From the IMG/VR virus record IMGVR_UViG_3300010372_000013, positions 1-24,841 of that record: DNA of 24,841 nucleotides. One strand, given 5' to 3'. The stretch is from a virus. The position numbers and the translations under genes were made by a program. Shown here one piece after another: positions 1-24,841 of the stretch. Every line of letters starts with the position of its first letter. Position 1 is the first letter of the stretch. The notes beneath the pieces were generated by a model. The model was not told the origin of the DNA. It ran no database searches and saw only the letters and a program-made list of their open reading frames with translations.

Positions 1-25
1 TAGTGTTATTGATTGGGTGGTTATT

Positions 26-748
26 ATGAAAGTAAAATTAAGAGGTTGCGGTGCTGAGTTAAACTTATTGTTCGGATGTGACGCTGAGTTCTTCTTAGCT
101 GACGCTGATGGCAATGTTATACCTGCATCTAAGGTTATCCCAGGCAAGAAGTACAAGCCGCATACATTAGATAACGGTGTGTGCCACCCTGATGGTCTAT
201 CCTTAGAGGTAGGTTGTCCACCAGCAGATACCCCAGAGGGTATGCTAACTAACCTGTTCGCTGTACTTCAGGAAGTCAAGGAGAAGTTCCTCGATCCAGC
301 TGGTGTACATATCATACCTGCTATGCAGGTTGACTCTTCCTTAGTCAAAGGTACAGACAAAGAAGACTTAGAGTTCGGCTGTGGTTCTGAGTACGATGTA
401 TACAGTAGTAATATGTTCAAGGATTCTGATCGAGATACATCCCAGAAGATGCGGTACTCTGGCTTTCATATCCACATAGGGTACACATCAGGTCAAGACG
501 ATAACTTCTGGACGTACACAGATGCTGGCAGATTAGTTCGAGTACTTGACTCTTTGGTAGATAAGTACCAGTTAGGTACAACATCTGGCAGAGCAAAGCA
601 GTACGGCGGTCGTGGAGCTTTCCGTGTCAAGCCGTACGGTATTGAGTACCGCTGTATGGACTGCTCAGTTATCACTAAACCAAGTAAGTTCAGTGCTCTG
701 GTTTCTTTCCTTAACGAAATCCCAAGTGCAATGGAGAAACTTTTATGA
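26..748 (+). CDS. phiEco32-type COOH-NH2 ligase (glutamine-synthetase fold)
   Basis: Probable ATP-dependent ligase joining a carboxylate to an amine, of the type-2 COOH-NH2 ligase family described in phage phiEco32. The N-terminal FGCDAEFFLAD motif (D19, E21) matches the family's G-x-D-P-E-F signature. HIHIG (H148, H150) and EYRC (E207, R209) supply further metal and nucleotide-site residues of the glutamine synthetase fold. I chose ATG at 26, which places the signature about 16 residues in. The frame is open to the left window edge with a GTG at 17, so an upstream start cannot be excluded. The stop overlaps the next ATG by 4 nt, and the following genes encode a second GS-fold ligase and an ATP-grasp enzyme, which supports a shared peptide or amide synthesis role. 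The substrate is unknown. Confidence 0.75.
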   Translation: MKVKLRGCGAELNLLFGCDAEFFLADADGNVIPASKVIPGKKYKPHTLDNGVCHPDGLSLEVGCPPADTPEGMLTNLFAVLQEVKEKFLDPAGVHIIPAMQVDSSLVKGTDKEDLEFGCGSEYDVYSSNMFKDSDRDTSQKMRYSGFHIHIGYTSGQDDNFWTYTDAGRLVRVLDSLVDKYQLGTTSGRAKQYGGRGAFRVKPYGIEYRCMDCSVITKPSKFSALVSFLNEIPSAMEKLL

Positions 749-3430: not shown

Positions 3431-3444
3431 GAGATACTTTATTG
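3429..3444 (+). promoter_or_regulatory. RBS with TTG start of primase-helicase
   Basis: AGGAG at 3429-3433 lies 8 nt before a TTG at 3442. No ATG or GTG in this frame lies close enough to give the conserved N-terminal zinc-binding region, so TTG is the likely start. Confidence 0.6.
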
Positions 3445-4404
3445 AGTAAAGTCTGCGTAGAGAAACTACCACATAAGTGCGGGTCTAAGCGTGGCCTGCA
3501 AGTATTCCAGCAAGAGGATGGTACGTTCAACGCTTTTTGTTTCAGCTGTGGTACGTACGAACCAGATCCTTACGGTGAGTCAGGTTCATCACCACCAGTT
3601 AAGAAGCTCAGGGTTAAGACTCCAGAGGAAGTACAAGCTGAGCTTCAAGAGATACAAGAGTACCCTATCTTAGCTCGCGAGGAACGCTGTATATCCCTTA
3701 AGGTTATGCAGCACTTCGGTGTCAGAACCAGTATGTCTGAGTACCAAGCGAACACACCTGTTGCTTGTTGGTATCCGTACTATACAGGTGACAAGCTGTC
3801 AGCCTTTAAGTGTAAGACGTTCGACAAGATTATGTTCAGCAAAGGGGACATGCGTTCAGCTGATATGTTCGGATGGCACAAGGTGTACGGTGCTAATAAG
3901 TACAAGCTGTTCATTACTGAGGGTGAGGACGATGCTATGGCGTTATTCAGAGTCCTTGTTAAGAACTGGAAGTACGACTCGTACCCTGCTGTAGTCTCGC
4001 TTAAGAACGGCAGTAAGTCAGCTGGTTCGTGTATCAGCAAGCACCTTCAGGACATAGAACGTATGTTCAAAGAGGTGGTACTGTGCTTCGACAATGACGC
4101 TCCGGGACGAGCAGCTGTGTCAGCTGTAGCTAAGGTACTGCCCGGTGTTAAGGTAGCTACACTCCCACTCAAGGACGCTAATGACATGCTCATGGCAGGT
4201 CGTGAGAAGGAGTTGTTCCAAGCTGTGATGTACGAAGCAGCACCGAAGGTGTCAGGTTCTACTTATAACTCAGGTGAGATATGGCACCTAGCTGACGAGG
4301 TAGTGGAGCAGGGTCTTGACTGGCCTTGGCCTAGTATGACTGAGGTGACACGAGGTGCTCGCTTCGGTGAGGTTAGTTACTTCGGTGCTGGTGTCAAGAT
4401 GGGT
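3442..4404 (+). CDS. primase-helicase, exon 1 (T7 gp4-like primase and start of helicase)
   Basis: First exon (321 codons) of a T7 gp4-like DNA primase-helicase. A zinc-binding region lies near residues 11-36: H11, C13, C33, C36, with the first Cys of the usual C4 set apparently replaced by His. The TOPRIM core has FITEGEDDA, VVSLKNG and VLCFDNDAPG, followed by LKDANDML. The exon ends within the helicase Walker A motif, GAGVKMG (G315-G321). The unspliced reading frame stops at once with TGA at 4405-4407, which would give a primase-only product. Joined to 5130 the motif becomes GAGVKMGKS, giving a protein of about 553 aa, close to the 566 aa of T7 gp4. The start is TTG at 3442. Confidence 0.88.
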
Positions 4405-5129
4405 TGAGTAAAGCCCATGTAAAACTGTGTGAATTCAGGGGAACTCCAGAACGGACAATCCTGAGCGAAGCTCTCAATCTGCTCTTACATAAGGAGTGGA
4501 TATGTACATATACAAAGCTGTTAAAGATTATCCGAACTATCTTGTTCGAGATGATGGTGTTATTATTGGTGCTCGTGGTAAACCTCTGAAGTATGATTAC
4601 AATCGTACAGGTTATGCTCGCGTGTCTCTCTGTAGAGATGGTGAGATTAAACGTAAGTTTGTGCATAGGATTGTAGCAGAAAGTTTTCTACCTGACCCAG
4701 AAAAACCTGACGCGATAGTTAATCACCTAGACGGTGACAAGCTAAACAACAACTACATTAATCTTGAGTGGACAACACACAAGAAAAACTTACAACACGC
4801 CCTAGACACAGGGTTACGTTGTATGAAAAATAGTGTAGCAATGTCTGACGAGCAACGTGAGGAAGTGGAGTGGATGTTATCAACTGGTATGTATTCCTAT
4901 CAGATGATTGCTAACACATGCCGAGTTACTTACAATGCCGTTGCGTTACTAAACCGCAGATTGAGAGAACGTGCAACGACTATCCCGAAAGGGAGTACAT
5001 CACAAGCTAATGGTGATGGAAGCGCACAGCCCTCAGAAGTGAGGTGATGATATAGTCTGGTCTGCATGGGAACATGCAGCAGTTCATAAGAGAACGGGGT
5101 AGGTGTTGCGAACCTACCTGAACAATACG
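4405..5129 (+). ncRNA. group I intron (probably subgroup IA) in the helicase P-loop codons
   Basis: 725-nt self-splicing intron. P1 is explicit: exon ATGGGT (4399-4404) pairs with the guide GCCCAT (4413-4418), with a U-G wobble at the splice site. P4 is TTCAGG 4434-4439 with CCTGAG 4460-4465. P7 is GACTAT 4978-4983 with ATAGTC 5052-5057. CCC-GAAA-GGG (4984-4993) fits P7.1 of group IA introns. P9 is CTGCATG-GGAA-CATGCAG (5062-5079), with a GNRA loop. A further hairpin spans 5098-5118 (GGTAGGT/ACCTACC). The intron ends at G5129, the expected terminal G, and exon 2 begins AAATCT. Removing 4405-5129 restores the helicase frame and its P-loop exactly. An HNH endonuclease ORF lies inside. Confidence 0.92.
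4502..5047 (+). CDS. intron-encoded HNH homing endonuclease (NUMOD4-HNH)
   Basis: 181-aa homing endonuclease that would cut intronless alleles of the helicase gene and drive intron spread. Domains: NUMOD4 at residues 1-50 (YPNYLVRDDGVI), HNH nuclease at about 51-95 with H55-R56, N74-H75 and the LDGDKLNNNYINLEW block, and a C-terminal helix-turn-helix-like DNA-binding segment near 115-155. ATG 4502 follows AAGGAG at 4491-4496 with good spacing; the GTG at 4496 overlaps that Shine-Dalgarno sequence and is rejected. The last 25 or so codons run through the intron's catalytic core, including the 5' strand of P7 and P7.1, so one stretch is both protein-coding and ribozyme. GTAC density is low compared with the phage genes around it. 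Confidence 0.88.
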   Translation: MYIYKAVKDYPNYLVRDDGVIIGARGKPLKYDYNRTGYARVSLCRDGEIKRKFVHRIVAESFLPDPEKPDAIVNHLDGDKLNNNYINLEWTTHKKNLQHALDTGLRCMKNSVAMSDEQREEVEWMLSTGMYSYQMIANTCRVTYNAVALLNRRLRERATTIPKGSTSQANGDGSAQPSEVR

Positions 5130-5828
5130 AAATCTGTCTTAGTTGACGAGATAGCTGCTCACTTTATAACTAAGTACGACATAGCTCCGTTCCTTGTTAA
5201 GCCAGAAGAGCCTATGTCTGGTACACTCAGGCGATTAGCTGGTAAGGCTATAGGCAAAGTATTCTGGGATCCTAAGATACCGTACACCAAGGAAGAGTTC
5301 CAAGAGGGTAAGGACTTAATAGGTAACAGGGCGTACATCTATGACTGCTACCAAGGTACAGACTGGGAGCAGGTCAAGCGAGAGATACGTGTGTACTCTA
5401 GCTTCGAGTCTAAGGGTCTGGTTATCCTTGACCCGTTAACATGCTTTACTGTAGGTATGTCAATGGGTGAACAGAACGAGAAGCTTGTGTCTATAGCTTC
5501 AGAGTTCGCAGCTTTAGCTAAGGAGCTTAACTTCATTGGTGTTATCTTCTGTCACCTGAATAGACCGGACTCTGGCGCTCCCCATGAACGTGGTGGTAAG
5601 GTACTGTCGGTACAGTTCGCTGGATCTCGTGCCATGATGAGGTTCTGTCATTCACTCTGGGGGTTAGAAGGGAATAAAGACCCTGACTTACCAGAGGAGG
5701 AACGTAATACTAGGTTCCTTGTACTACTTGAGGATAGGAACTTCGGGGAGTCTATCCGTATCCCTATGTTCTATAACAAACAGACTGGTAAGTTAACTGA
5801 GTTAACACCAAGGGTTGGAGGTGATTGA
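5130..5828 (+). CDS. primase-helicase, exon 2 (T7 gp4-like helicase)
   Basis: Second exon (232 codons plus stop), starting at the lysine of the Walker A motif (K322-S323 of the spliced protein). It encodes the RecA-like replicative helicase domain: a Walker B-like strand in GLVILDPLTCF, the H-L-N-R motif in IFCHLNRPDSG, the GSRAMMRF segment and the RNFGESI loop containing a likely arginine finger. These match the T7 gp4 and DnaB helicase order. An ORF beginning with GTG at 5103 exists in this frame, but its first nine codons are intron sequence. Without splicing there would be no P-loop, so exon 2 is not an independent gene. It ends in TGATG overlap with the next gene. Confidence 0.88.
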   Translation, partial: KSVLVDEIAAHFITKYDIAPFLVKPEEPMSGTLRRLAGKAIGKVFWDPKIPYTKEEFQEGKDLIGNRAYIYDCYQGTDWEQVKREIRVYSSFESKGLVILDPLTCFTVGMSMGEQNEKLVSIASEFAALAKELNFIGVIFCHLNRPDSGAPHERGGKVLSVQFAGSRAMMRFCHSLWGLEGNKDPDLPEEERNTRFLVLLEDRNFGESIRIPMFYNKQTGKLTELTPRVGGD

Positions 5829-6449: not shown

Positions 6450-6596
6450 ATGAAAGTTTATGTAGTTGTCTACAGCGATGATGATGGGAATCGGTACTAC
6501 GTACGAGTGTTCAAGAATAAACGAGAAGCTGACGATATGATTGAAGCTCTCGATCGTTTACCTAATAGTTACTTCGTACTGGAGGAAGAGATCTGA
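6450..6596 (+). CDS. hypothetical protein, 48 aa
   Basis: Small protein starting at ATG 6450, with AGAGGTG upstream inside the preceding gene's last codons. An ORF in the same frame extends back to 6372 but lies within the previous gene, so the short version is preferred. The pattern is strand-strand-helix-strand (VYVVVYSD, YYVRVFKNKREADDMIEAL, YFVLEEE). It ends with TGATG overlap into the sigma-like gene. Function unknown. Confidence 0.5.
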   Translation: MKVYVVVYSDDDGNRYYVRVFKNKREADDMIEALDRLPNSYFVLEEEI

Positions 6597-7129
6597 TGCT
6601 ATCTGAAGCTGACTTTAACCACTTGTACAAAACAGGGTACGCTAGAGCTTGCAGTATCTTCCGTAAGCAAGGGCTTGAACCTGACCAGTGTGACGACTGT
6701 GCCCAAGACATGTACGAGAGAATGTGGCGTTACCGTCACCAGTGCACTGAGACTTACACACCGCTTAACTTCTGGTACTTGAACTTACGCCATGCTATAG
6801 TGAACATAGTACCAGCTTACAAGCGTGAAGGTACGTACATCTTAACGAACTCTGATGCACTGGAGTTCTTACAAGATCATTACCCTGACCCTGATGACCC
6901 TGAGTTACAGCTTATGCTTGAGTCTTTCCTTGAGACTTTACCTACGGAGTTATCTCAAGACATACTAGCTAAGTACAACTCAGTTACACAGCAGGACGCT
7001 TACGAATTACTTGACTCTCTTGGCTTACGGCCTGCTGGCAAGGAGTCTAAAGCTTACATGATGCGTATCAAACGGTTAAAGGAAGACCCTGATGTTCTTC
7101 GTATGATACAGGAATTCACTGGGAGGTAA
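6596..7129 (+). CDS. putative phage ECF-type sigma factor-like protein
   Basis: 177-aa protein with the layout of a two-domain ECF sigma factor. Residues 9-82 resemble region 2: DDCAQDMYERMWRYR parallels the D-x-x-Q-x-x-F/Y-x-R-x-W core, followed by FWYLNLRHAIVNIV and a basic KREGT segment. Residues 109-163 resemble region 4: LPTELSQDIL, then a helix-turn-helix-like stretch (TQQDAYELLDSLGL) and MMRIKRLKE. The two are joined by an acidic linker. Phage phiEco32 is known to encode an ECF-like sigma, and no phage RNA polymerase is visible here, so a role in redirecting host RNA polymerase to middle or late promoters is plausible. This is pattern recognition without a search. A DNA-binding replication protein is the main alternative. 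Confidence 0.5.
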   Translation: MLSEADFNHLYKTGYARACSIFRKQGLEPDQCDDCAQDMYERMWRYRHQCTETYTPLNFWYLNLRHAIVNIVPAYKREGTYILTNSDALEFLQDHYPDPDDPELQLMLESFLETLPTELSQDILAKYNSVTQQDAYELLDSLGLRPAGKESKAYMMRIKRLKEDPDVLRMIQEFTGR

Positions 7130-7131
7130 GT

Positions 7132-7557
7132 ATGTTTGGTTACTCTGTAGATATAAGTTCTTATTGTACTCACTCACACCACTCTGAAGAAGAGTATGGA
7201 GATTGGAGTTCGTCATACGACAACACATTCCTAAAGGTCGCGAAGACGGATATCCACCCAGATGTAGTCTCTGTACTGGACATTGGGAGTGGAGAGAACT
7301 GCTTTGTTGTATGGGCTGAATGGGGTAGCGGAGACTCCTTTGGACATGCAGACTCTAGTAATGTGGAAGCGCTTGCTATATTCACAAATGAGGGTGTAGC
7401 TCAAGAGTTTGTGAGGATATTGGATGAAGGAAGTGAGTACACTCACGAGTTTAGTACATCAGATGGTCAGCATCATAGGGTGCATAAGGGCTGGGTTGGG
7501 CACTTTGAAACACTTGATGGTATTCACATAGAGAGTTGTGTTATGAATAAGGAGTAA
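7132..7557 (+). CDS. hypothetical protein, 141 aa
   Basis: Unknown soluble protein. It starts at ATG 7132 after GGGAGGTAAGT, two bases past the previous stop. The N-terminal 35 residues are rich in His, Ser, Asp and Glu, with an HSHHSEEE stretch that could bind metal. The remainder is predicted alpha/beta (CFVVWAEWGSGDSFGHADSS, ALAIFTNEGVAQEFVRIL). It has no membrane segment. It sits directly before the DNA polymerase gene with a 3-nt gap. Confidence 0.6.
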   Translation: MFGYSVDISSYCTHSHHSEEEYGDWSSSYDNTFLKVAKTDIHPDVVSVLDIGSGENCFVVWAEWGSGDSFGHADSSNVEALAIFTNEGVAQEFVRILDEGSEYTHEFSTSDGQHHRVHKGWVGHFETLDGIHIESCVMNKE

Positions 7558-7560
7558 ACT

Positions 7561-9546
7561 ATGATCGTCTTTGACTTAGAGACAGATGGTTTACTCGATA
7601 CCGTCAGCACTGTATGGTGCGGTGTGTTCCAGAACCTGAAGACTAACGAAGTCAAAGAGTTCAGGCCACACCAGATACAAGAGATGCTTGAGTACATGGA
7701 TACCTGCCCTGTACTCATAGGGCATAACGTACTGAACTTTGACTTCCCTGTACTAGAAAAGCTGTACGGCTACGAGTACAAAGGGAAGAAGATCGACACT
7801 GTTATCATGTCCCGTCTACTATTCCCTAACAGACAGTTACCTAAACAACTGGTGATAGACTACCAAGCTAAGAGGGCTGAGGGGTACAGTGTAAGGATGC
7901 CGGGGCCGCACTCTGTTGCATCTTGGGGTTACACCTTGGGACAGGGCAAGGTAGACTACGATGCTTGGGACAGCTTCGATGAAGGTATGATGGTACGATG
8001 TATCACTGACGTACAGATACAGTGTATGATATTCAAGCATCTTAGGGAACGAACCAAGCAACTGAACTGGCCTACTGAATCTCTTGAAGTTACGTTCAAG
8101 TGCTTCGAGATACTAAGTAAAATGGAGCAGTACGGTTGGCTGATTGACCAGCCTTTGTTACACCGCAGTATGTCTTTACTTACACACTGGATTAACAGGA
8201 TAGACAGGATAGTTCATCCGTTACTTCCGAACATCGTAGAGGTACAAGAGTCTAAGTCCAGTGGCATGTACAACTGGGTACGTAAACCTTTCTTAGCATC
8301 AGGTAAGTACGCTGCTATCACACTCAGAACTTTCCCTGAGCTAGATGGTGTAGATTCTAAGGATGGTTTAGTACAAGGCCCGTTCAGCAGGGTATCCTTC
8401 AGACGTGTTAACTTAGACTCACGGAATGAAGCTGTCGATTACCTATTAAGCATAGGGTGGCAGCCTAAAGAGTTTAACTATAAGACAGATGACAACGGAC
8501 GAGTAATCAAGGATCACCAAGGAAACCCAATCACCACATCACCGAAGATGAATTACAAGGATCCATTTAACGGCGTGGAAGGGTTGGTAGGTCAGCTTAT
8601 AGTTAAGCGTGTACAGTGCAGGCAGCGTAGGTCTACACTGGAAGGGTACGCTGATAACATCAGGGCAGATGGCAGAATATCCCAGCGTATCACAGGTATC
8701 GCTACCACTGGACGATTAACGCACTCAGGCATAGTAAATGTACCCGGTGCTAGATCGTTCTTTGGTAAGCGTATGCGTTCATTGTTCATAGCTAAGCCCG
8801 GCTACAAGATCGTAGGTACTGATGCTGTGTCTTGTCAGGACAGATGTTTAGCGGCTAGGGCTAACAGCCAAGAGTTCACAGACATGCTACTTAATGGCGA
8901 CAAGTCTAAGGGAACAGATGGCCACAGTCTTAACCGTGACGCTATCAACAAGAAGTTCGCTGCTGCTAAGTTAGAGTACAAGGTAGATAGGGATATAGGT
9001 AAGAACTTAAATTATGCAGCCAAGTTCGGTGCGTCTGATAAGAAGCTTGCCACCACTGCTAACGTACCTGACAAGTACGGTGCCTTAATACGGGAGGCTT
9101 TAGAAGAAGTATCTCAAGCTCAGACTATCTTAGTTGAGAATCTAACTAAAGAATGGAGAGCTACTGCTCAAGTCAAGCAAGGTCAGTTCGGAAGACCAGA
9201 GTTCTATAATGGATTTATTCGTGGCTTGGATGGACGACCCATCTTTATTGAGCACGAACATACTATCCTTGTGTTCATGCTTCAGTCAGACGAAGCGATA
9301 TGCATGCAGTACGCTAAGGTGTTGCTGTATGATAGGCTTGTAAGTCTAGGTTGGAAGTGGGGAGAGCACTTCGCCTTTGTAGCTAATGTGCATGACGAGT
9401 ACAGCGCAGAAGTTCGGGAAGATCTAGCAGAGCAGTACGCTACACTAGCTGCTAAAGCTATTGAGGTAGCATCTAAGAGGTTGAGGATGTCTGTACTACA
9501 ACAGGGAGAATCAGCTATTGGTAACAACTGGTACGATGTTCACTAA
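7561..9546 (+). CDS. family A DNA polymerase (T7-like, with 3'-5' exonuclease)
   Basis: 661-aa replicative DNA polymerase. Proofreading domain: Exo I DLET (D5, E7), Exo II HNVLNFD (N56, D61), Exo III around D150 in MVRCITDVQ. Polymerase domain: motif A TDAVSCQDR with catalytic D421, motif B R477-x3-K481-x3-Y485 then G, and motif C VHDEYS (H611, D612, E613). Tyr at 485 corresponds to T7 Tyr526 and E. coli Phe762, the residue linked to acceptance of dideoxynucleotides. The usually invariant motif A steric-gate Glu (E. coli E710, T7 E480) is Gln426 here. Length is close to T7 gp5 (704 aa). ATG 7561 follows AAGGAGT. No intein or intron interrupts it. Confidence 0.95.
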   Translation: MIVFDLETDGLLDTVSTVWCGVFQNLKTNEVKEFRPHQIQEMLEYMDTCPVLIGHNVLNFDFPVLEKLYGYEYKGKKIDTVIMSRLLFPNRQLPKQLVIDYQAKRAEGYSVRMPGPHSVASWGYTLGQGKVDYDAWDSFDEGMMVRCITDVQIQCMIFKHLRERTKQLNWPTESLEVTFKCFEILSKMEQYGWLIDQPLLHRSMSLLTHWINRIDRIVHPLLPNIVEVQESKSSGMYNWVRKPFLASGKYAAITLRTFPELDGVDSKDGLVQGPFSRVSFRRVNLDSRNEAVDYLLSIGWQPKEFNYKTDDNGRVIKDHQGNPITTSPKMNYKDPFNGVEGLVGQLIVKRVQCRQRRSTLEGYADNIRADGRISQRITGIATTGRLTHSGIVNVPGARSFFGKRMRSLFIAKPGYKIVGTDAVSCQDRCLAARANSQEFTDMLLNGDKSKGTDGHSLNRDAINKKFAAAKLEYKVDRDIGKNLNYAAKFGASDKKLATTANVPDKYGALIREALEEVSQAQTILVENLTKEWRATAQVKQGQFGRPEFYNGFIRGLDGRPIFIEHEHTILVFMLQSDEAICMQYAKVLLYDRLVSLGWKWGEHFAFVANVHDEYSAEVREDLAEQYATLAAKAIEVASKRLRMSVLQQGESAIGNNWYDVH

Positions 9547-16046: not shown

Positions 16047-16088
16047 AATGTTACTAAGTGATGCTGTCTGTGTCTGTTATAGTGTAAC

Positions 16089-16110
16089 GGTACGAGCGGT
16101 AGCGAGTACC
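16089..16110 (+). other. stem-loop with internal tandem G-A pairs
   Basis: GGTAC 16089-16093 pairs with GTACC 16106-16110, and GC 16096-16097 with GC 16102-16103. Between them, GA faces GA (possible tandem sheared pairs in plus-strand RNA), closed by loop GGTA. In the opposite-strand RNA the internal bases would be TC facing TC, so the structure is better formed in plus-strand transcripts. It lies 42 nt past the last plus-strand stop and could protect the 3' end or slow polymerase. Confidence 0.5.
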
Positions 16111-16136
16111 CTACTGATATAAACTAAGTAATAAAG

Positions 16137-16166
16137 AAGGGAGCTGATGAGGCTCCCTTTTCTTTT
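16137..16166. terminator. probable bidirectional intrinsic terminator
   Basis: Perfect 8-bp stem AAGGGAGC (16137-16144) with GCTCCCTT (16152-16159), a 7-nt loop, then TTTTCTTTT on the plus strand. On the minus strand the same stem is followed by TTCTTTATT. It sits 9 bases beyond the minus-strand stop at 16169 and 90 bases after the plus-strand stop, so it can end both converging operons. Confidence 0.85.
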
Positions 16167-16168
16167 AT

Positions 16169-17962
16169 CTACTCTTCTGTCTGTAAGTTAGTTAAACCAA
16201 GAGACAGTCTAACAGCAGCTTCTAAAGCTGGCCCTACATCCTCTGCTCTAGCGTTCATTACTCTAGCGTACGACATAGTGTAATCGTTCAACACTCTTGA
16301 CAGATCAGCTGCTCTCTTCTGAGCATCAGCTGACAGAGGTAACTGACCTTGACGAGCACCAGATAGAACTGGCACTCTTAAAGCTGGATTACCTACGAAC
16401 TGTCTCGATGTATCCTGAAACCCTGCCTTGTAATCTACCTTAAACCTACCACCCTCGAATCTAATATCTAAATTCTTAGTGTAGTTCGGATCATGTAGCT
16501 GTAGTGAAGGAGCTATCTTCTCTCTCATCAGCGTTCTTGCTGACTCAATCCAGATATCACTAGGCTCTACACCTTCAGCAGCAGCAGCTGTCTGCACAGC
16601 CTCAGATAACTGAGGCGGGTGTACCGTCTTAGCTAGTCCTGATAACATACTAGGTAAAGCGTACGCTGAGTTCGCTACACCTCTGACCTTAGCAGGTGCA
16701 GAGATACCCTCAAGCATGTTATTAACTAGAGTTGTACCAGCATCAGCTACAACCTGTGGACTAGGTGATGTACCTAAGTCACGGATAGTATCTCCTAACA
16801 TCACGTAGTTCTGCTTAACAGCTTCTGGCTTCAAGCTGTACGTACTAGCAGCTCTAGCTAAACCATCAGCTGTCTGCCTAGCTACTGTATCTCGGACTGT
16901 CTGAGTACTCGTGCCACCTGAGTAGTACTTAAGAACCTCGTTCATAGAGTTCAAAGGAACCTTCAGGGCGTTGTTAATAAGCATAGCTCTTGATACAGAG
17001 TTATTACCGGGGTCAGCAGTGAAAGATAAAGCTGAGTCCACAGATAGTCTAGATAGTTCAGTCTCACTTAACTTCAGTGGGATAGTTCCATCAAGTATCT
17101 GAATGACTGTATCTATGTTAGAGTTAATTCTATTAAGCTGATCAGCCCCTATATCAGATAAATTACCACCTGCTTGATTCAACTGAGAAGCTAACTGATT
17201 CTGTAAGCTAGTCTGTTGTAGCTTCAAGTTAGTTACTAGGTCTGAAGTTAATTGCATCCTACTGTTAGGGTTCTTCTGTACAGCAGTACTGTACCCCATT
17301 AGTGCAGCCCGTAAGCCACTCTCAGTGTCAGCAGAGAACTTCTGGTACACACTGTTAGATACGATTAACCTTTCTCTATCAGCTAGGTTCAGCTTAGAAG
17401 TCTTGAGAGCAACTTCCTGCTGCTCTCTAGTTATCATAGCTGCTTGGCCTGCATCCATCTGACCTAAGATAAGTAACTGATTCTGGTCTAGCTCCTCTGG
17501 GTTGTAGCCCTGAGCAGCAGCTAGTTCAGCACCTTTAGTCCGGTAAGACTCAAGCTGTTTAATCTGACCAGCCTCTACCTCCCGCCTGTTCTTCTCATCC
17601 TCTGCTAAGAAAGACCCACCTAACTGTTCCTTGAGCACACCGTAGTACGCCTGTCGAGTAGTCTCTGACTGGCCAACCTGTGTTTCAAGAACAACAGAGT
17701 TCAAGAACCTCTTTGCCGCGGGCCTACCCTCTGTCTCCTCTATTTCCTTGAATCTCTTTAACTGCTCAACAGCCAGTTGCGCCCCTTGTGTCTTCAGATC
17801 CTCATCTATAGCTGACTGGCTCGGCCCCTTAGGGGCACGAACCAAGCTTAAAGCGTCTGATAAGAACCCTGCAACCTGCTGCCCCGTGGTATCAACCACA
17901 GGACGCTGGATACTAGGAGCTGATAGGTTCTGAACCTGTAATGGATTACTGAAATCCGCCAT
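16169..17962 (-). CDS. putative internal virion/ejection protein, 597 aa
   Basis: Large helical protein, rich in Gln, Ala, Leu and Ser, with no signal peptide or clear membrane segment. Long helical stretches (residues about 80-270) suggest coiled coils or stacked helices. It is the last gene of the minus-strand virion operon and directly follows the 1725-aa protein with a 1-nt gap; AGAGGAA lies just before its ATG. In T7-like phages gp14, gp15 and gp16 follow one another as internal core/ejection proteins, and by position and composition this protein would be one of the larger two. No lytic motif was recognised. Virion role is inferred from context. Confidence 0.65.
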   Translation of the reverse strand: MADFSNPLQVQNLSAPSIQRPVVDTTGQQVAGFLSDALSLVRAPKGPSQSAIDEDLKTQGAQLAVEQLKRFKEIEETEGRPAAKRFLNSVVLETQVGQSETTRQAYYGVLKEQLGGSFLAEDEKNRREVEAGQIKQLESYRTKGAELAAAQGYNPEELDQNQLLILGQMDAGQAAMITREQQEVALKTSKLNLADRERLIVSNSVYQKFSADTESGLRAALMGYSTAVQKNPNSRMQLTSDLVTNLKLQQTSLQNQLASQLNQAGGNLSDIGADQLNRINSNIDTVIQILDGTIPLKLSETELSRLSVDSALSFTADPGNNSVSRAMLINNALKVPLNSMNEVLKYYSGGTSTQTVRDTVARQTADGLARAASTYSLKPEAVKQNYVMLGDTIRDLGTSPSPQVVADAGTTLVNNMLEGISAPAKVRGVANSAYALPSMLSGLAKTVHPPQLSEAVQTAAAAEGVEPSDIWIESARTLMREKIAPSLQLHDPNYTKNLDIRFEGGRFKVDYKAGFQDTSRQFVGNPALRVPVLSGARQGQLPLSADAQKRAADLSRVLNDYTMSYARVMNARAEDVGPALEAAVRLSLGLTNLQTEE

Positions 17963-17963
17963 A

Positions 17964-20900
17964 CTATTCCTCTTGTTTTCTTTCTAAGAACTCTATTAGC
18001 ATGTTAGCTAGCGCAGCATCTTCTGGGTGCAAGGCTGCGTACCTACGTAACTCAGCTAATGACTGCTTAGATTCTAATGTTGTAAATAACTTATCAGCAT
18101 GGCTCACGAGTAAACCGTCTGGTGTGAAAGCCAGTCTCTGTGAGAATGCTTGTTTAGCAGCCTCCGCAGATTTAGGTGATCTCCCTAAAGTCAAGTCTAT
18201 CACCCTGTTACCTTCAGCTATAGCTTTAGCCAGAATACCACCGTTTATCTGGTCCTTAGGGTAATCATCTAACATACCTATAGCCACGTTGTTCGCTAAC
18301 TTAACGGCAGTGTTAACCTTATCCTCTTGGGCGTAGACTTTATCCAACTGACGGTAGTAGTCCTGAACAGCTGTAGGGGGTATACTAAACAGTATAGGTA
18401 TCCAAGATAAGTCACTTACGTTAGCTATCTGTTTACCGTTACTGTCTTGGTACTGACCCCACTGGTAAGCAACCCAAGCCTTCTCCACATCTGATAAACC
18501 AGATAAAGACTTAGTACCTACCTCCTTCATTAGACGAAGTGCTGACTCAGACGTCTCATCTGACGTAGTTACGAAAGACTTAACTACAGCGGATATGTCC
18601 TTGAATGTTGTCCACAATGCCTGCGAGGGACCTCCTATAATGAAACCACCGTCGTTGGTGAACATCATCTCGAACATACTCTTAACAGCTCCTATAGGAG
18701 TTATCCTAGATGTCAAGTCGAAACTCTCACCGAACACACCCTCTACACCCTTGGCGGCTAGGCCGTCCATAAATAGGGTTACTAGTTCTGGGTTCATACC
18801 TTGATCCTCAGCCCAAGAACTAGCACTAACTTTCTGATCGTCTGTAAGAGCGTAAGTACCTAAACCAAACATCCCAGATATACCAGCCAGTGTTATGAAT
18901 GATTGCCTCCATGAGTCTGCGTAAGGGTTAGCCCCATCAACAGATACCTTTAAGTCAGGGGACTTACCACCAGTTACTGCCTTCAGAGCTGGACTAGCAA
19001 CACGAAGTGTAGGGTCAATCAAAAGATCTAATGACATACGATGTACGTGTTGGAAGAACTGGAGTTGTGCAGACAAGAAGTTCTGTTGGTAATCGAACTG
19101 GTCAGCACGGTTCTGGTTGAAGGTTAGTCTAGTAGCTAAGGATGATATCTCTTCCTTACCTCTCCTACCTACAGCGTAGTCCACACCCTTAGCCTTGATT
19201 ACATCAGCTGCCGCTTGGTTCCATGCGAACAGGTTAGCCAAGTCCTGTGCCATCCTTTGAGGAACCATAGCTACCCTACCGGCTGATAAAGCAAAATTAA
19301 CCGGATTGAGTTTCTTATAAAAACTCGCAGATAAAGGGTTGTGGCGACCAGCTTCTATCTTTGCACTCTCAGAAAGTGTGGCAAGGATATCGTTGCCAAA
19401 GTTCGTACTGAACATACCTGACTCTTTCATGTTCTTCATGTACAGATTGAACTTATCAGGTGTCATCCCTTTCCCGTACAACTTAGCAAGCATAGACGGA
19501 GGAAACTTATCTCCGAACCCTAGACTAATAGAAGATGCTATCGTACTTCTTAAGGTATCCTTAACGAAACTTACTGGACTCCTTGTGAACAACCACATAA
19601 TACTAGAGCTGTTACCTAAGATCTGGTAGAAAAACCGAGAAGCTATAAACTTAACGGTGTTCAAAGCCTTGATTGTTTCAAATGCAGCATCAGCAGCTTT
19701 AGATGTTGACTTCAGAGCGCTTCCTAATCTGTCTGAACCCTTAACACGCAAACTATTACCCCAACTATCAAGGTGATTAAGCAGCATTGTAACATCTTTT
19801 CCAGATAAAGATCTCTCCATATTAGATATGAATCTATGGAATCTCTGAGCATCATCCACTACGCCATTCGCCTTAGCGGTGTCAGACCACTTAGCTGAGT
19901 ATCCTCCGAAATCAGGGGAGAAGCCCTCGTACCCATCCATGAACTTACCGTACGTCTGACTGAATCTCTCTTTCAGCATGTCAATAGCTTCAACACCTAA
20001 GTGCCTACGAGCTTCATGTACGCCTTTGTTCAGAGCTTCCTCTGGATCTAAGACATGAGCTAAACCCTCTGGGCCTAGTAGTCTTTCACCACGCTTCCTA
20101 GCATGAGCAGGTAAGCCTGTAGTACTGCCAGTAATATCTAACCCTACCTCTAACTCACCTTCGACTGTGAGCTTACTGGTGTACTTAGCTTCGATAGCTA
20201 GGATATCAGCTTCAGTAGCTGCACCGCCTAGTTCATCTATCTCTTGTGCTACCATAGCAGCCCTAGCCTCATCAGCTTGCGCTTTGTTAGCATAAATACC
20301 AACAGCTTTACTATACGTATCATCAACACCGTTGACCTGACGAGATACTGTAGCTTCTACCTTAAACGAAGTGCCGCCTTTATGACCGTAACCAAGGAAA
20401 GCTAAAGCATCTTCACCTTTGTAGTTCACATCTATGTGCCCCTTACGGATATTCATAGGTGTATTAGTCAAAGGTTTAATGTCAGTGGTGTTAACGATAG
20501 CGTAAGTCACAGCTTTGCCATCAGTGAACTCAGCATACCTGCTTAAACCGACAACCATCTTGTTAGTATCATTATAGATACTGTCTAGCAGGTCATCTGT
20601 CAGTGGAACGTACGAGCCTGTAGTGACGTCGTACAGCTCTTTACCCCACACAGTAGTAGTATCCCCTAGGGGTGCCTGTGTTGGCTTCGTAGAGGACAGT
20701 GTAGGACGTTCTACGATAGGTTTAGCTTGTACTTGTCCGCTTAAATCCTGCAGGATGCCGTCTCTAGTATACACAGACTTGAACCCACGAACATTCAACT
20801 TGTTGTACGTAGCCACTTGACGTACCTGAGCCATAGAATCGTAGAAATCCCTAGCTCCTGTGTACGCTTTCCAAGTTCTGTTCGAGATATTAGTCCCCAG

Positions 20901-23141
20901 CACAGTCTCAGCTTGCCCTTTAGAAGCGAACACTATCTCCTCTGCGTCTCCATGCGCTAGCATGCGAAACCAATCTGCTTTGTCTTTACCAGAGTTCATA
21001 CGAAGTATCGGAGAAAGCATGTTTCTTTGTAAGCCAGCTAGTCTAGTTGACTTCATAAAGTAACTATTCACTGTATCAAAGATATCCGTCTCTAACCTTC
21101 TTGAGAAAGACAGGAGCGAATCAGACAACATGTTACTAGGGAACAAAATTTCAGAGTTAAAGTCGTTAACGAACGCTGTGTTAGGTCGAACCTTAGCTTC
21201 TGAACGTACAAAGAATTCTAACTCACCAGTGAAGTCAGGGCTAACATCTTGAACCTGCATTAACTCTGACTGGATGCCACGAGGTTTAGCTAGTATCTCG
21301 TACGATTCGCCGAACAAGAACTTAGCTGCGTTGTCTGCTTCACCGATTGTACTGTAACCCCCATCCTTAGATGCACCGAATACAGAACGAATAAGCAAAC
21401 CACCTGACTCTTCACCTAAGATCTCAGAAGCTGATGGGTGCAGAGTACCACGAGAGTTCTTAGCTACCATCTTGGAGTACTTATCAGGTACTTCAGCTAA
21501 CTCACCTTCACGAAGTAAAGTTAAAGCAGAGTGGTCTAATAACTCTCTCTGGAACTGTTCGTACTTAACAGACCTATTCACCCTCTCAGAGTTCGTAGGA
21601 ACGTCTGTAAGCATGTTAGGGTGTACACCAATAGGTGAGCTAGGGTCTGGTACTAATCTCTCAACCAGCTGCTCTGGAGTAACTCCTAGAGCCTGTACTG
21701 CTTTAGGGTTCGCTTGGATAGCTTTAGCTAACAGAACAGAAGCCTGCTCAGGGTTAGTCTCTTTCATGGTATCTAAGAGAGAACCAGTACCTGTCTGAAC
21801 ATTTACATCTGGAGTAACTTCTCTAACCATAGCTCTTGATGCTACAGCTGAGTCTTCGATAGCTGAGTTAATAACTCGGTTGATCTCTGCGATAGTACTA
21901 GGAGACCACGAAGCATTCATACTAGCTCTACCTAGTATCTTTAAGCTAGCCATCTTAGCTAACGCTGGCAACTTCTTAACTACACCTGCTATGATAGTAG
22001 CATCTAAAGTATCGAATGCATCAGCTATATTACCAAGGGTAATCTGACCTGAGTTCGCTTTACGTAACTCATCCTTGATAACATCGAACAGTTCGTTAGA
22101 CCAGACAGGGTTAACTTCAGGAGCAACCTCGTCAAGAGAACTAACTACGGATTGTAGCTCCTCAAGACGTAAGTACAACTCATCAACAGTTAAGTTCGGG
22201 TCAGTTAAGTACTGAACTATCTTGTCAGCATGGGCTGACTTGAATACGTACTGGTCAAGTCCTACAGACTCACCGAAGGATTCCTGTAAGATACCTAACA
22301 ACTTACCTTGGTCGTACCGGCCTGCCACAGACTGAGCTGGGTTCAATAGAGCAGTGAACCAGTCACTAACAGATGAACGCTCTAAGTCAGAGTCAGACTT
22401 CCGAGACAGCATATCGTCGATAGCTCTACGGTACATAACCTCACCAGCTACATGCTGGAAGTCACCGAAGTACTGACGCTGTTCTGGTGTTAAGTTAGAA
22501 GATACCTCTGCTACCAGCTGAGATACCTTTTCTAACGTCTTAACATCTATACTCTGTTCTTGAACTAAAGCTTGAGCATCTAGCCCAGCCTGTGGGTCAG
22601 CTTGTACACCAGTTAAAGCTTCAAGGTTCTGCCACAGAGCAGCATTAATAGAACCTACTTCTTTTCTAGTTCTCTCATCTAAGAAAGAACTTAACAAAGG
22701 AGAGGCACCAGTTGATACTAAGTCAGCTGCTACCTCTTGCATCACACCTTGAACATCCTCACCATCGCCAGCCATAGACATACTAACAAGAGTACCGAGC
22801 TCAGAAGCTTTGTGTTCTGACTTCGGTTTAGTACTAGGTTGTGCGAACTGATCAAAGAAAGTGTAGTCTTGCTCTTGACCTTCTGAGAAAAAAGAAGTAC
22901 CAACCAAAGGAGCAGGCTGAGTCTGTGCTGGTACTTCTGCGGTAACTTGAGGAGTAACCTCAACCTCTGGGGCTAAGGTCTCCTGATTGATTTGAGATGA
23001 CCTACGAATCTCTTCGAGAACACTTGCCTTAGTCCCTTCGAGTAAACCCATCTCATTAACGGTACGAACTAAATCGTCTTCTGTTACTTTTCCTGTAGCT
23101 AGGTCTTCTCTTAGTTGACCAACTGCGTTCTCGATAGCCAT
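17964..23141 (-). CDS. giant internal virion protein, 1725 aa
   Basis: 5.2-kb gene, by far the largest in the window. The product is mostly predicted helical, with an N-terminal Gln/Glu/Thr/Pro-rich region and a charged middle. A hydrophobic segment near residues 1412-1434 (SFITLAGISGMFGLGTYAL) could insert in a membrane. Its place directly after the gp14-like gene matches the internal core/ejection proteins of T7-like phages (T7 gp16 is 1318 aa), which form a channel for DNA entry. I do not see a transglycosylase motif like that at the N-terminus of T7 gp16, nor RNA polymerase motifs like those of the N4 virion polymerase. The start is supported by AAGGAA upstream. Homologues in related podoviruses are often similarly large. 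Confidence 0.7.
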   Translation of the reverse strand: MAIENAVGQLREDLATGKVTEDDLVRTVNEMGLLEGTKASVLEEIRRSSQINQETLAPEVEVTPQVTAEVPAQTQPAPLVGTSFFSEGQEQDYTFFDQFAQPSTKPKSEHKASELGTLVSMSMAGDGEDVQGVMQEVAADLVSTGASPLLSSFLDERTRKEVGSINAALWQNLEALTGVQADPQAGLDAQALVQEQSIDVKTLEKVSQLVAEVSSNLTPEQRQYFGDFQHVAGEVMYRRAIDDMLSRKSDSDLERSSVSDWFTALLNPAQSVAGRYDQGKLLGILQESFGESVGLDQYVFKSAHADKIVQYLTDPNLTVDELYLRLEELQSVVSSLDEVAPEVNPVWSNELFDVIKDELRKANSGQITLGNIADAFDTLDATIIAGVVKKLPALAKMASLKILGRASMNASWSPSTIAEINRVINSAIEDSAVASRAMVREVTPDVNVQTGTGSLLDTMKETNPEQASVLLAKAIQANPKAVQALGVTPEQLVERLVPDPSSPIGVHPNMLTDVPTNSERVNRSVKYEQFQRELLDHSALTLLREGELAEVPDKYSKMVAKNSRGTLHPSASEILGEESGGLLIRSVFGASKDGGYSTIGEADNAAKFLFGESYEILAKPRGIQSELMQVQDVSPDFTGELEFFVRSEAKVRPNTAFVNDFNSEILFPSNMLSDSLLSFSRRLETDIFDTVNSYFMKSTRLAGLQRNMLSPILRMNSGKDKADWFRMLAHGDAEEIVFASKGQAETVLGTNISNRTWKAYTGARDFYDSMAQVRQVATYNKLNVRGFKSVYTRDGILQDLSGQVQAKPIVERPTLSSTKPTQAPLGDTTTVWGKELYDVTTGSYVPLTDDLLDSIYNDTNKMVVGLSRYAEFTDGKAVTYAIVNTTDIKPLTNTPMNIRKGHIDVNYKGEDALAFLGYGHKGGTSFKVEATVSRQVNGVDDTYSKAVGIYANKAQADEARAAMVAQEIDELGGAATEADILAIEAKYTSKLTVEGELEVGLDITGSTTGLPAHARKRGERLLGPEGLAHVLDPEEALNKGVHEARRHLGVEAIDMLKERFSQTYGKFMDGYEGFSPDFGGYSAKWSDTAKANGVVDDAQRFHRFISNMERSLSGKDVTMLLNHLDSWGNSLRVKGSDRLGSALKSTSKAADAAFETIKALNTVKFIASRFFYQILGNSSSIMWLFTRSPVSFVKDTLRSTIASSISLGFGDKFPPSMLAKLYGKGMTPDKFNLYMKNMKESGMFSTNFGNDILATLSESAKIEAGRHNPLSASFYKKLNPVNFALSAGRVAMVPQRMAQDLANLFAWNQAAADVIKAKGVDYAVGRRGKEEISSLATRLTFNQNRADQFDYQQNFLSAQLQFFQHVHRMSLDLLIDPTLRVASPALKAVTGGKSPDLKVSVDGANPYADSWRQSFITLAGISGMFGLGTYALTDDQKVSASSWAEDQGMNPELVTLFMDGLAAKGVEGVFGESFDLTSRITPIGAVKSMFEMMFTNDGGFIIGGPSQALWTTFKDISAVVKSFVTTSDETSESALRLMKEVGTKSLSGLSDVEKAWVAYQWGQYQDSNGKQIANVSDLSWIPILFSIPPTAVQDYYRQLDKVYAQEDKVNTAVKLANNVAIGMLDDYPKDQINGGILAKAIAEGNRVIDLTLGRSPKSAEAAKQAFSQRLAFTPDGLLVSHADKLFTTLESKQSLAELRRYAALHPEDAALANMLIEFLERKQEE

Positions 23142-23150
23142 TTGTATTCC

Positions 23151-23603
23151 TTAACCTGTTGGAGCTTTAGGGGCCTGTAATCCACCAGCTGCGCCTGCAA
23201 CTGATAAAGCTAATCCACCTACAGCTGAGTACGTACCAGCTTGTGATTGGTATCTCGCTGCTCTGCGATTGAACTGATTAATAACACCCACGCCAGTCTC
23301 AGTCTGTTGACTGAACGCTAGGTTCCCAGCTGCTGTAGCTTGTATGCCAGATAGTTGACCAGATAATCCAGATGAGTCTGCTGTACCAGATGTAATAGCA
23401 CCTTGCGTAGCTGTGGCCCTAGCAATCTGTGCCTGTCTTAATTGTTCAAGCCTCTCGCGCTGCATTGACCGAGCCTCTATCTTACCTTGAACTTGGTTAG
23501 CTCGCTCTTGAGCACGCCTAGCTTTGTTACCTTGGACGATACCTCCAACGGTAGCAACAGCAGATACGCCCACAGCAACAGCAGCTGTAACTGCGAAACT
23601 CAT
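23151..23603 (-). CDS. gp14-like internal virion protein
   Basis: 150-aa protein with the T7 gp14-like layout: an N-terminal hydrophobic Ala/Val-rich segment (residues about 3-24), a charged helical stretch rich in Arg, Gln and Glu (26-65), then a Gly/Ser/Thr/Ala-rich region and a C-terminal hydrophobic Ala/Gly segment (TYSAVGGLALSVAGAAGG). Proteins of this type join the ejected core and enter the outer membrane during infection. ATG overlaps the upstream TGA (4 nt), with GGAGGT as ribosome site. Position before the giant internal protein supports the call. Confidence 0.72.
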   Translation of the reverse strand: MSFAVTAAVAVGVSAVATVGGIVQGNKARRAQERANQVQGKIEARSMQRERLEQLRQAQIARATATQGAITSGTADSSGLSGQLSGIQATAAGNLAFSQQTETGVGVINQFNRRAARYQSQAGTYSAVGGLALSVAGAAGGLQAPKAPTG

Positions 23604-24043
23604 AGAACCTCCAGTAATCTTTTATCGTTGTAATCTGTAGTCACTAAAGCATCTACCGTCTTCTGTACATCATCTTCAATAGAAGGATGGAACGTAGTCC
23701 ATGTGGTATCCTCAAGAGCGTACACAGCTCTCTTAGCACCAGCAGGAGAGATGAACGTAACAGGGGCTACGAATTCATCAGCGCCGAACTCGGTGACTAC
23801 ACGAACCCTGCCCTCGGTTATCACGTTAATGCACTCATGTAAGTGTATCTTACCTACGACACATACACCCTCTGGTATAAAGATCTCTCTCCCGTACACA
23901 CCATTAGCGAAGTAATGCCACACGGGTAACTCCACTTGGTACTCTTCAGGCGTGGTCTGTAAAGCATCCTGTAGGTCAAGGATGCCAGCCTTACGGCCAG
24001 CCCTCGTATCCGGTAAGTTATTATCTACTGTAGCTGGTATCAT
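23600..24043 (-). CDS. cupin-like protein in the virion operon
   Basis: 147-aa protein whose middle (about 40-122) reads as a single cupin beta-barrel: G-R-E-I-F-I-P-E-G, then GKIHLHECINVITEGRV with the H-x-H metal motif, FVAPVTFISPAG and WTTFHPS with a terminal His. A short helical C-terminal tail follows. Cupins bind metals or sugars and may be structural. It is coupled to its neighbours by overlap (1 nt upstream, 4 nt downstream), between a tail protein and the gp14-like protein, so it may be a virion component or assembly factor. No enzymatic role can be read from the sequence. Confidence 0.7.
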   Translation of the reverse strand: MIPATVDNNLPDTRAGRKAGILDLQDALQTTPEEYQVELPVWHYFANGVYGREIFIPEGVCVVGKIHLHECINVITEGRVRVVTEFGADEFVAPVTFISPAGAKRAVYALEDTTWTTFHPSIEDDVQKTVDALVTTDYNDKRLLEVL

Positions 24044-24841
24044 TACATTCTTCCTTTAGCTGTGTACTGTACACTAAAACCTAACATCTCAACAGCATCT
24101 GACCCTACAGCATCGAACCTGAACTGTACAGCCTTACCTTTACCACGTAATTTGTCTTTGAACTGGACAACTGTATCCCCAGTATCAAAAGAAGATACGC
24201 CGTCATTAGCTGGTGCCCACCCTCTTGGTACAGGGTTGTATATCTGCCTTGAAGCTTCTTTAGCAGATGTCCTGAAATCCCACTGCACAGACATGTTACA
24301 TGAACTAGGCCTGTCAAAGAAGTACTCACCGACACCTGTAGTAACTGTTGTCTCAGTCTTCCTGAAGAACACGTTAACTAAAGGAGCACCTTTGTTCCGT
24401 GTGTAGTTACCTAGCGTTTCGTAGTTCGTAACTAAGTACGAGCTGTATTCTTCAGCCCCGTAGTCTCTATAATCTGATACTGACTCTTGATCATTAACAG
24501 CTAAGTACCAACTGGTAGAAGGGTCGCCACCTGCGTTACCTACACGGACTACGTAGTAAGATCTCTGATCAACTGTTGAGTACACTATAGAGTCAGGTAC
24601 TCTGGAAGAACTAGCTGTACTTAACTGCCAAGGATACCACCCACCCATCTCAAGATTCAGAACTAAGATCTCTCCAGTGAATCTCTTGTGGCAGTAGATA
24701 GACTTATCTTTCTCGTTATAATGCAGGAGCAGGTTCTCATTAGAGAACGACTTCCACTTAGTTCTAATTGTAGAATCAGTTAAGGAAGTTACTCTTGGGT
24801 TCCCGAAGTCATCAGTACTAATAGAGAACATAGAGTCTGAA
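24043..24841 (-). CDS. tail protein, C-terminal part (tail tubular protein B-like), partial
   Basis: Open to the right window edge: the ATG at 24829-24831 is internal, since the frame continues upstream without a stop to 24841. The visible 265 or so residues are beta-rich with many aromatic residues (GGWYPWQL, RSYYVVRVGN, SWYLAVND), as in the propeller-like tail nozzle proteins of podoviruses (T7 gp12, P22 gp10). The final GFSVQYTAKGRM resembles the C-terminal end common in that group. Position upstream of the internal virion proteins fits the T7 order. The start and N-terminal domain lie outside the window. Confidence 0.6.
   Translation of the reverse strand, partial: SDSMFSISTDDFGNPRVTSLTDSTIRTKWKSFSNENLLLHYNEKDKSIYCHKRFTGEILVLNLEMGGWYPWQLSTASSSRVPDSIVYSTVDQRSYYVVRVGNAGGDPSTSWYLAVNDQESVSDYRDYGAEEYSSYLVTNYETLGNYTRNKGAPLVNVFFRKTETTVTTGVGEYFFDRPSSCNMSVQWDFRTSAKEASRQIYNPVPRGWAPANDGVSSFDTGDTVVQFKDKLRGKGKAVQFRFDAVGSDAVEMLGFSVQYTAKGRM

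Follow-up and report, generated by a model that had tools for sequence, protein, structure and literature searches.

The sigma-like locus and its described counterparts

Phage phiEco32 makes its own ECF-type sigma factor, gp36 (PHROG 1740), and has no phage RNA polymerase. The protein reads middle and late promoters with the common motif tAATGTATAtA (PMC4281155) and binds E. coli RNA polymerase, as stated by a paper that cites Savalia et al. (PMC7881722). In Pseudoalteromonas phage RIO-1 (Zobellviridae, Melvirus), gene 19 (AGK87033) is located between the primase/helicase and DNA polymerase genes, and its GenBank note reads 'putative sigma factor ... there is a clear sigma factor in this position in related phages'. 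The oyster phage PQ867847 carries ORF25, labelled sigma factor, at the same position. Bacterial ECF sigmas (CnrH, AlgU/RpoE, SigR) are small proteins with a common region 2 fold and no regions 1.1 and 3.

The viral DNA analysed here (the window, 24,841 nucleotides, IMG/VR record IMGVR_UViG_3300010372_000013) carries a 177-aa ORF at the place of the RIO-1 gene. The protein is about 21% identical to the longer RIO-1 protein and 98% identical to ORF25 of PQ867847. The sigma identification is already in public annotation (RIO-1_19, PQ867847 ORF25) and is less novel than the first-pass annotation of the window supposed. What is new is GTTACTA-N21-TATAGTG, an element repeated in close relatives both where virion genes start and in other intergenic stretches, and unlike the late motif of phiEco32 and the sites of RIO-1; independent support for the sigma assignment and a caveat on region 4 are added. 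Our reading, with a probability of about 0.8, is that a two-domain ECF-like sigma factor would redirect the host polymerase to this element and switch on the virion genes. It offers a testable answer to how late transcription is controlled in Zobellviridae, which have no RNA polymerase of their own; for marine phages it proposes a sigma and a matching promoter as a candidate pair, and the candidate promoter set is directly usable by experimenters.

Table 1 Features of the window and split sigma ORFs of related phages
Feature	Position	Strand	Basis or remark
COOH-NH2 ligase, phiEco32-type	17-748		PF14395
Primase-helicase, split	3442-4407 and 5103-5828		HNH ORF separates the halves
Insert in primase-helicase	4408-5102		HNH ORF at 4496-5047
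Probable ECF-like sigma factor gene, 177 aa	6596-7129	+	ATG start; profile, intermediate-sequence, structure and selection evidence
Sigma region 2 domain, residues 1-80	6596-6835	+	2.2-like DDCAQDMYERMWRYR; 2.3/2.4-like FWYLNLRHAIVNIVPAYKR; AF2, VIA-align, hhalign
Candidate region 4, residues 101-177	6896-7126	+	LPTELSQDIL...TQQDAYELL...AYMMRIKRLKE; motif order and spacing, low-confidence helices only
141-aa ORF	7132-7557		between sigma-like gene and DNA polymerase
DNA polymerase	7561-9546		
Promoter-like element GTTACTA-N21-TATAGTG, exact copy	16050-16084	+	motif from virion-gene starts of complete relatives; putative sigma link
Intrinsic terminator	16135-16161	+	bidirectional pattern at the junction of the convergent arms; 50 bases past the element
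Virion arm (late genes)	16169-24831	-	presumed main sigma target; annotation of orthologues
Split sigma ORFs, L012	4440-4697 and 4694-4999		overlap ATGA
Split sigma ORFs, L010	4488-4745 and 4742-4996		overlap ATGA
Split sigma ORFs, Vibrio VPMCC5 (OL676770)	20722-20973 and 20973-21278		

The gene, its neighbourhood and its relatives

The 177-aa ORF is present as described, with the N-terminal blocks DDCAQDMYERMWRYR (residues 33-47) and FWYLNLRHAIVNIV (residues 59-72) and the C-terminal blocks LPTELSQDIL (residues 115-124) and MMRIKRLKE (residues 155-163). A GGAGG stretch lies 5' of its ATG, and its start shares one base with the stop of the small ORF just before. Among five orthologues, the pairwise dN is 0.007-0.10 against a dS of 0.32-1.63 (dN/dS about 0.01-0.08), indicating strong purifying selection, and most substitutions fall at third codon positions; on these grounds the ORF is a genuine gene. 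Its placement between helicase and polymerase also holds, with more precision: the primase-helicase is itself split, several small ORFs separate it from the sigma-like gene, and the 141-aa ORF intervenes before the DNA polymerase. In contrast, gp36 lies about 5 kb from the phiEco32 DNA polymerase gene. The COOH-NH2 ligase shared with phiEco32 and the minus-strand virion arm were both correctly recognised in the first-pass annotation. Unlike the case of bacterial ECF sigmas, no anti-sigma gene was identified near the window gene. A group I intron is annotated in the RIO-1 primase-helicase gene; an Rfam scan of the window, including the primase-helicase insert, returned zero families at threshold.

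Position was examined in 14 annotated relatives, and 13 of them have a sigma-like ORF between the primase/helicase and DNA polymerase genes. Three of these ORFs are near-identical orthologues; the remaining ten carry a sigma factor annotation or pass or approach the PF04542 model. The exception is Vibrio phage 275E43-1 (Zobellviridae), which has only a 70-aa ORF between both genes and whose genome gave no match to Sigma70_r2. Three oyster-associated Zobellviridae assigned to Melvirus (PQ867846, PQ867847 and PQ867849) and one IMG/VR contig carry orthologues that are 89-98% identical. IMG/VR searches with the sigma-like protein returned only one, near-identical locus, and homologues were found via DNA polymerase searches instead. 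In PQ867850, a second sigma-like ORF (L002:9391-9864; PHROG 1740, E 3.9e-5) is present besides the one beside the DNA polymerase.

The gene is in two pieces in Vibrio phage PS32B-12 and oyster phage PQ867854, and separate region 2 and region 4 ORFs occur in 24 records, comprising PS32B-like Vibrio phages, VPMCC5 and PQ867854. The region 2 ORFs of L010 and L012 both end in GGM-GRSL, and Vibrio phage 1.235 carries the fused form. The split ORFs suggest either a two-part ECF-like sigma, comparable with Bacillus RsoA/SigO, or a frameshift.

Relationship of the protein to ECF sigma factors

Direct scans of the window protein against Pfam and PHROGs matched no sigma model, and PHROG 1740 gave nothing at E<=1, whereas gp36 and Zobellviridae relatives match this family (L017, 0.0019; PQ867850, 7.7e-6; CVT22, 1.5e-22). 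Searched alone against the PDB, the protein found ECF SigE as its best match with a weak, non-significant E of 0.37; with a genus profile, ECF sigmas were reached at E 3e-4 to 0.0075, with unrelated uteroglobin chains ranking higher. Homology in region 2 emerged through a family profile and an intermediate sequence. A profile of five same-position sigmas from other Zobellviridae genera (A4), which holds no member of the window's clade, gave the window ORF a score of 15.7 bits (E 0.003), against 16.3-17.0 bits for the four orthologues and 6.1 bits for the best of 2000 shuffles. Among 3141 ORFs scanned with A4, all those above the window ORF were its orthologues and other sigma-like ORFs, including the putatively sigma-like L048:1745-2245. 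The intermediate homologue L017, located at the same position, is 28% identical to the window protein (BLASTP 3e-24) and passes PF04542 Sigma70_r2 with 25.6 bits (cut-off 24), as do other same-position genes. Furthermore, the profile-profile comparison proposed in the first-pass annotation placed the window clade with sigma profiles at 81-86% probability; hhalign of four orthologues against the five other-genus sigmas gave 81% over residues 2-96. The size (177 aa) and the two blocks only, lacking regions 1.1 and 3, agree with an ECF sigma.

The predicted structure agrees with the region 2 assignment rather than revealing an unrelated fold. In the AF2 model, residues 1-78 form a three-helix domain of fair confidence, with a pLDDT of about 80 for residues 1-70. 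Comparison of the alignment-assisted model of residues 1-80 by VIA-align gave CnrH as the best match (Z 9.4, 76 aligned, rmsd 2.5), and nearly all of the best 50 matches listed (Z 9.4 to 5.6) were sigma factors, in region 2. We treat the predicted fold as support for sigma identity and not as proof, because the best Foldseek E-value (0.025) is not significant by itself, helical bundles reach middling Z in such comparisons, and the input alignment held recognisable sigmas, so that the model is not fully independent evidence. The missing direct Pfam or PHROG match could be taken to mean that the protein is helical but has no kinship with sigma factors, the likeness arising by chance; the agreement of profile, intermediate-sequence, synteny and fold evidence makes such a coincidence highly improbable. 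Collectively, these sequence comparisons and models indicate that the gene most likely encodes a divergent ECF-type sigma factor, as the first-pass annotation proposed.

Its claim of two sigma-like blocks is supported for region 2, and region 4 remains a candidate. In the C-terminal half, the order and spacing of the motifs fit region 4, and AF2 confidence is about 60 or below, with low-confidence helices and no significant fold match: E. coli SigmaE region 4 ranked first at only E 1.3, and no sigma chain was among the VIA-align matches listed for the highly uncertain model of region 4 alone. Unlike in bacterial ECF sigmas, the candidate region 4 of the window protein is not recognised by sequence models, and its function is presumed. 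A sigma-derived co-regulator, which keeps an RNA polymerase-binding region 2 but has a missing or remodelled region 4 and acts alongside another factor or as a host sigma appropriator, would account for the well-supported region 2 next to the less supported region 4, for the variable C-terminus of the sigma-like protein among Melvirus members and for the split genes in the family. However, in length and order of motifs the protein matches a complete ECF sigma, the gene is under selection, and a recognisable region 4 is retained in some related phages, which leaves the co-regulator unlikely.

Promoter-like element and late transcription

PF00940, the model for T7-type RNA polymerase, had no match in the window or in any of four complete relatives, while the T7 positive control was detected, in line with the first-pass annotation. 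By analogy with phiEco32, the simplest mechanism would be that a phage sigma redirects the host polymerase to late promoters. The sigma, with regions 2 and 4, would be made together with the replication genes and would bind the host core RNA polymerase; the polymerase, guided to GTTACTA-N21-TATAGTG through putative recognition by the sigma, would then activate the virion operon of the minus strand along with a few further late units, with a presumed early/late timing.

The first-pass annotation had proposed to look for a repeated motif upstream of virion genes, and one was found by reading the virion-strand gaps of complete relatives. Copies with 0 mismatches occur at the arm junction and portal gap of PQ867846, the portal gap of PQ867847, and three places in PQ867849 (junction, virion operon start and portal gap). 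The window has a single such copy, at the arm junction, because it ends before the virion operon start and the portal gap. Copies with 1-2 mismatches are located at the junctions of PQ867847 and the IMG/VR relative, and ahead of endonuclease ORFs in PQ867849 (L004:8124), PQ867847 (L001:5871) and L005 (8720). Conserved minus-strand copies with 1-2 mismatches also lie in the left-arm gap of PQ867846, PQ867847 and PQ867849 (L003:3942-3978, L001:4550-4586, L004:87-123). A weight matrix built from eight sites scores those sites, in-sample, at 31-44 bits, and shuffled sequence at 12.5 or less. An exact 14-base match is expected by chance far below once per genome; at 2-3 mismatches, some matches should arise by chance, and since at up to 3 mismatches the pattern is no commoner than chance, we claim only copies with 0-1 mismatch or with homologous flanks. 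A conserved near-match within the terminase gene, found in RIO-1 too, was excluded as coding sequence. The exact long form of the pattern has zero matches in IMG/VR.

The element was not seen in PQ867850, RIO-1 or PQ867853; RIO-1 and PQ867853 have CTTGCA-N18-TATMTT at the virion operon start and portal gap instead. The window and near relatives, including the late gaps of the clade, contain no exact copy of the phiEco32 late motif TAATGTATA (PMC4281155), against 5 in the 49 kb of phiEco32. The joint divergence of sigma and promoter is suggestive, yet confounded by phylogeny. We give even odds to a more specific proposal, in which the sigma and GTTACTA-N21-TATAGTG form a lineage-specific pair that drives virion genes, certain homing endonuclease genes and a transcript from the junction, and RIO-1-type sisters have changed both, amounting to co-diversification within one genus.

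The TATAGT half of the element matches the sigma-70 -10 hexamer at 5 of 6 bases, and the host polymerase could therefore use these sites. Late genes might then be read by host sigma-70 polymerase with an activator, in which case the element would be a sigma-70 promoter dependent on that activator and the ORF would be a minor regulator, and the late sites of RIO-1 and PQ867853 do resemble sigma-70 promoters closely. Nevertheless, the spacing of 21 bases places GTTACTA too far away for a sigma-70 -35, a pattern scan found no sigma-70 promoter at the element, and most relatives keep the sigma-like gene at the same position, so we consider an activator-dependent scheme quite improbable and favour the phage sigma.

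At the convergent junction of the window (16050-16161), the plus-strand element is followed by the bidirectional terminator, and with 50 bases between them the would-be transcript is therefore about 75 nt. The same junction site lies ahead of a protein gene, ORF23, in PQ867849. The left-arm gap copies in PQ867846 and PQ867847 point into plus-strand genes. In the IMG/VR relative L005, an insert with an endonuclease-like ORF (L005:8640-9432) lies inside the DNA polymerase gene and is preceded by a one-mismatch element.
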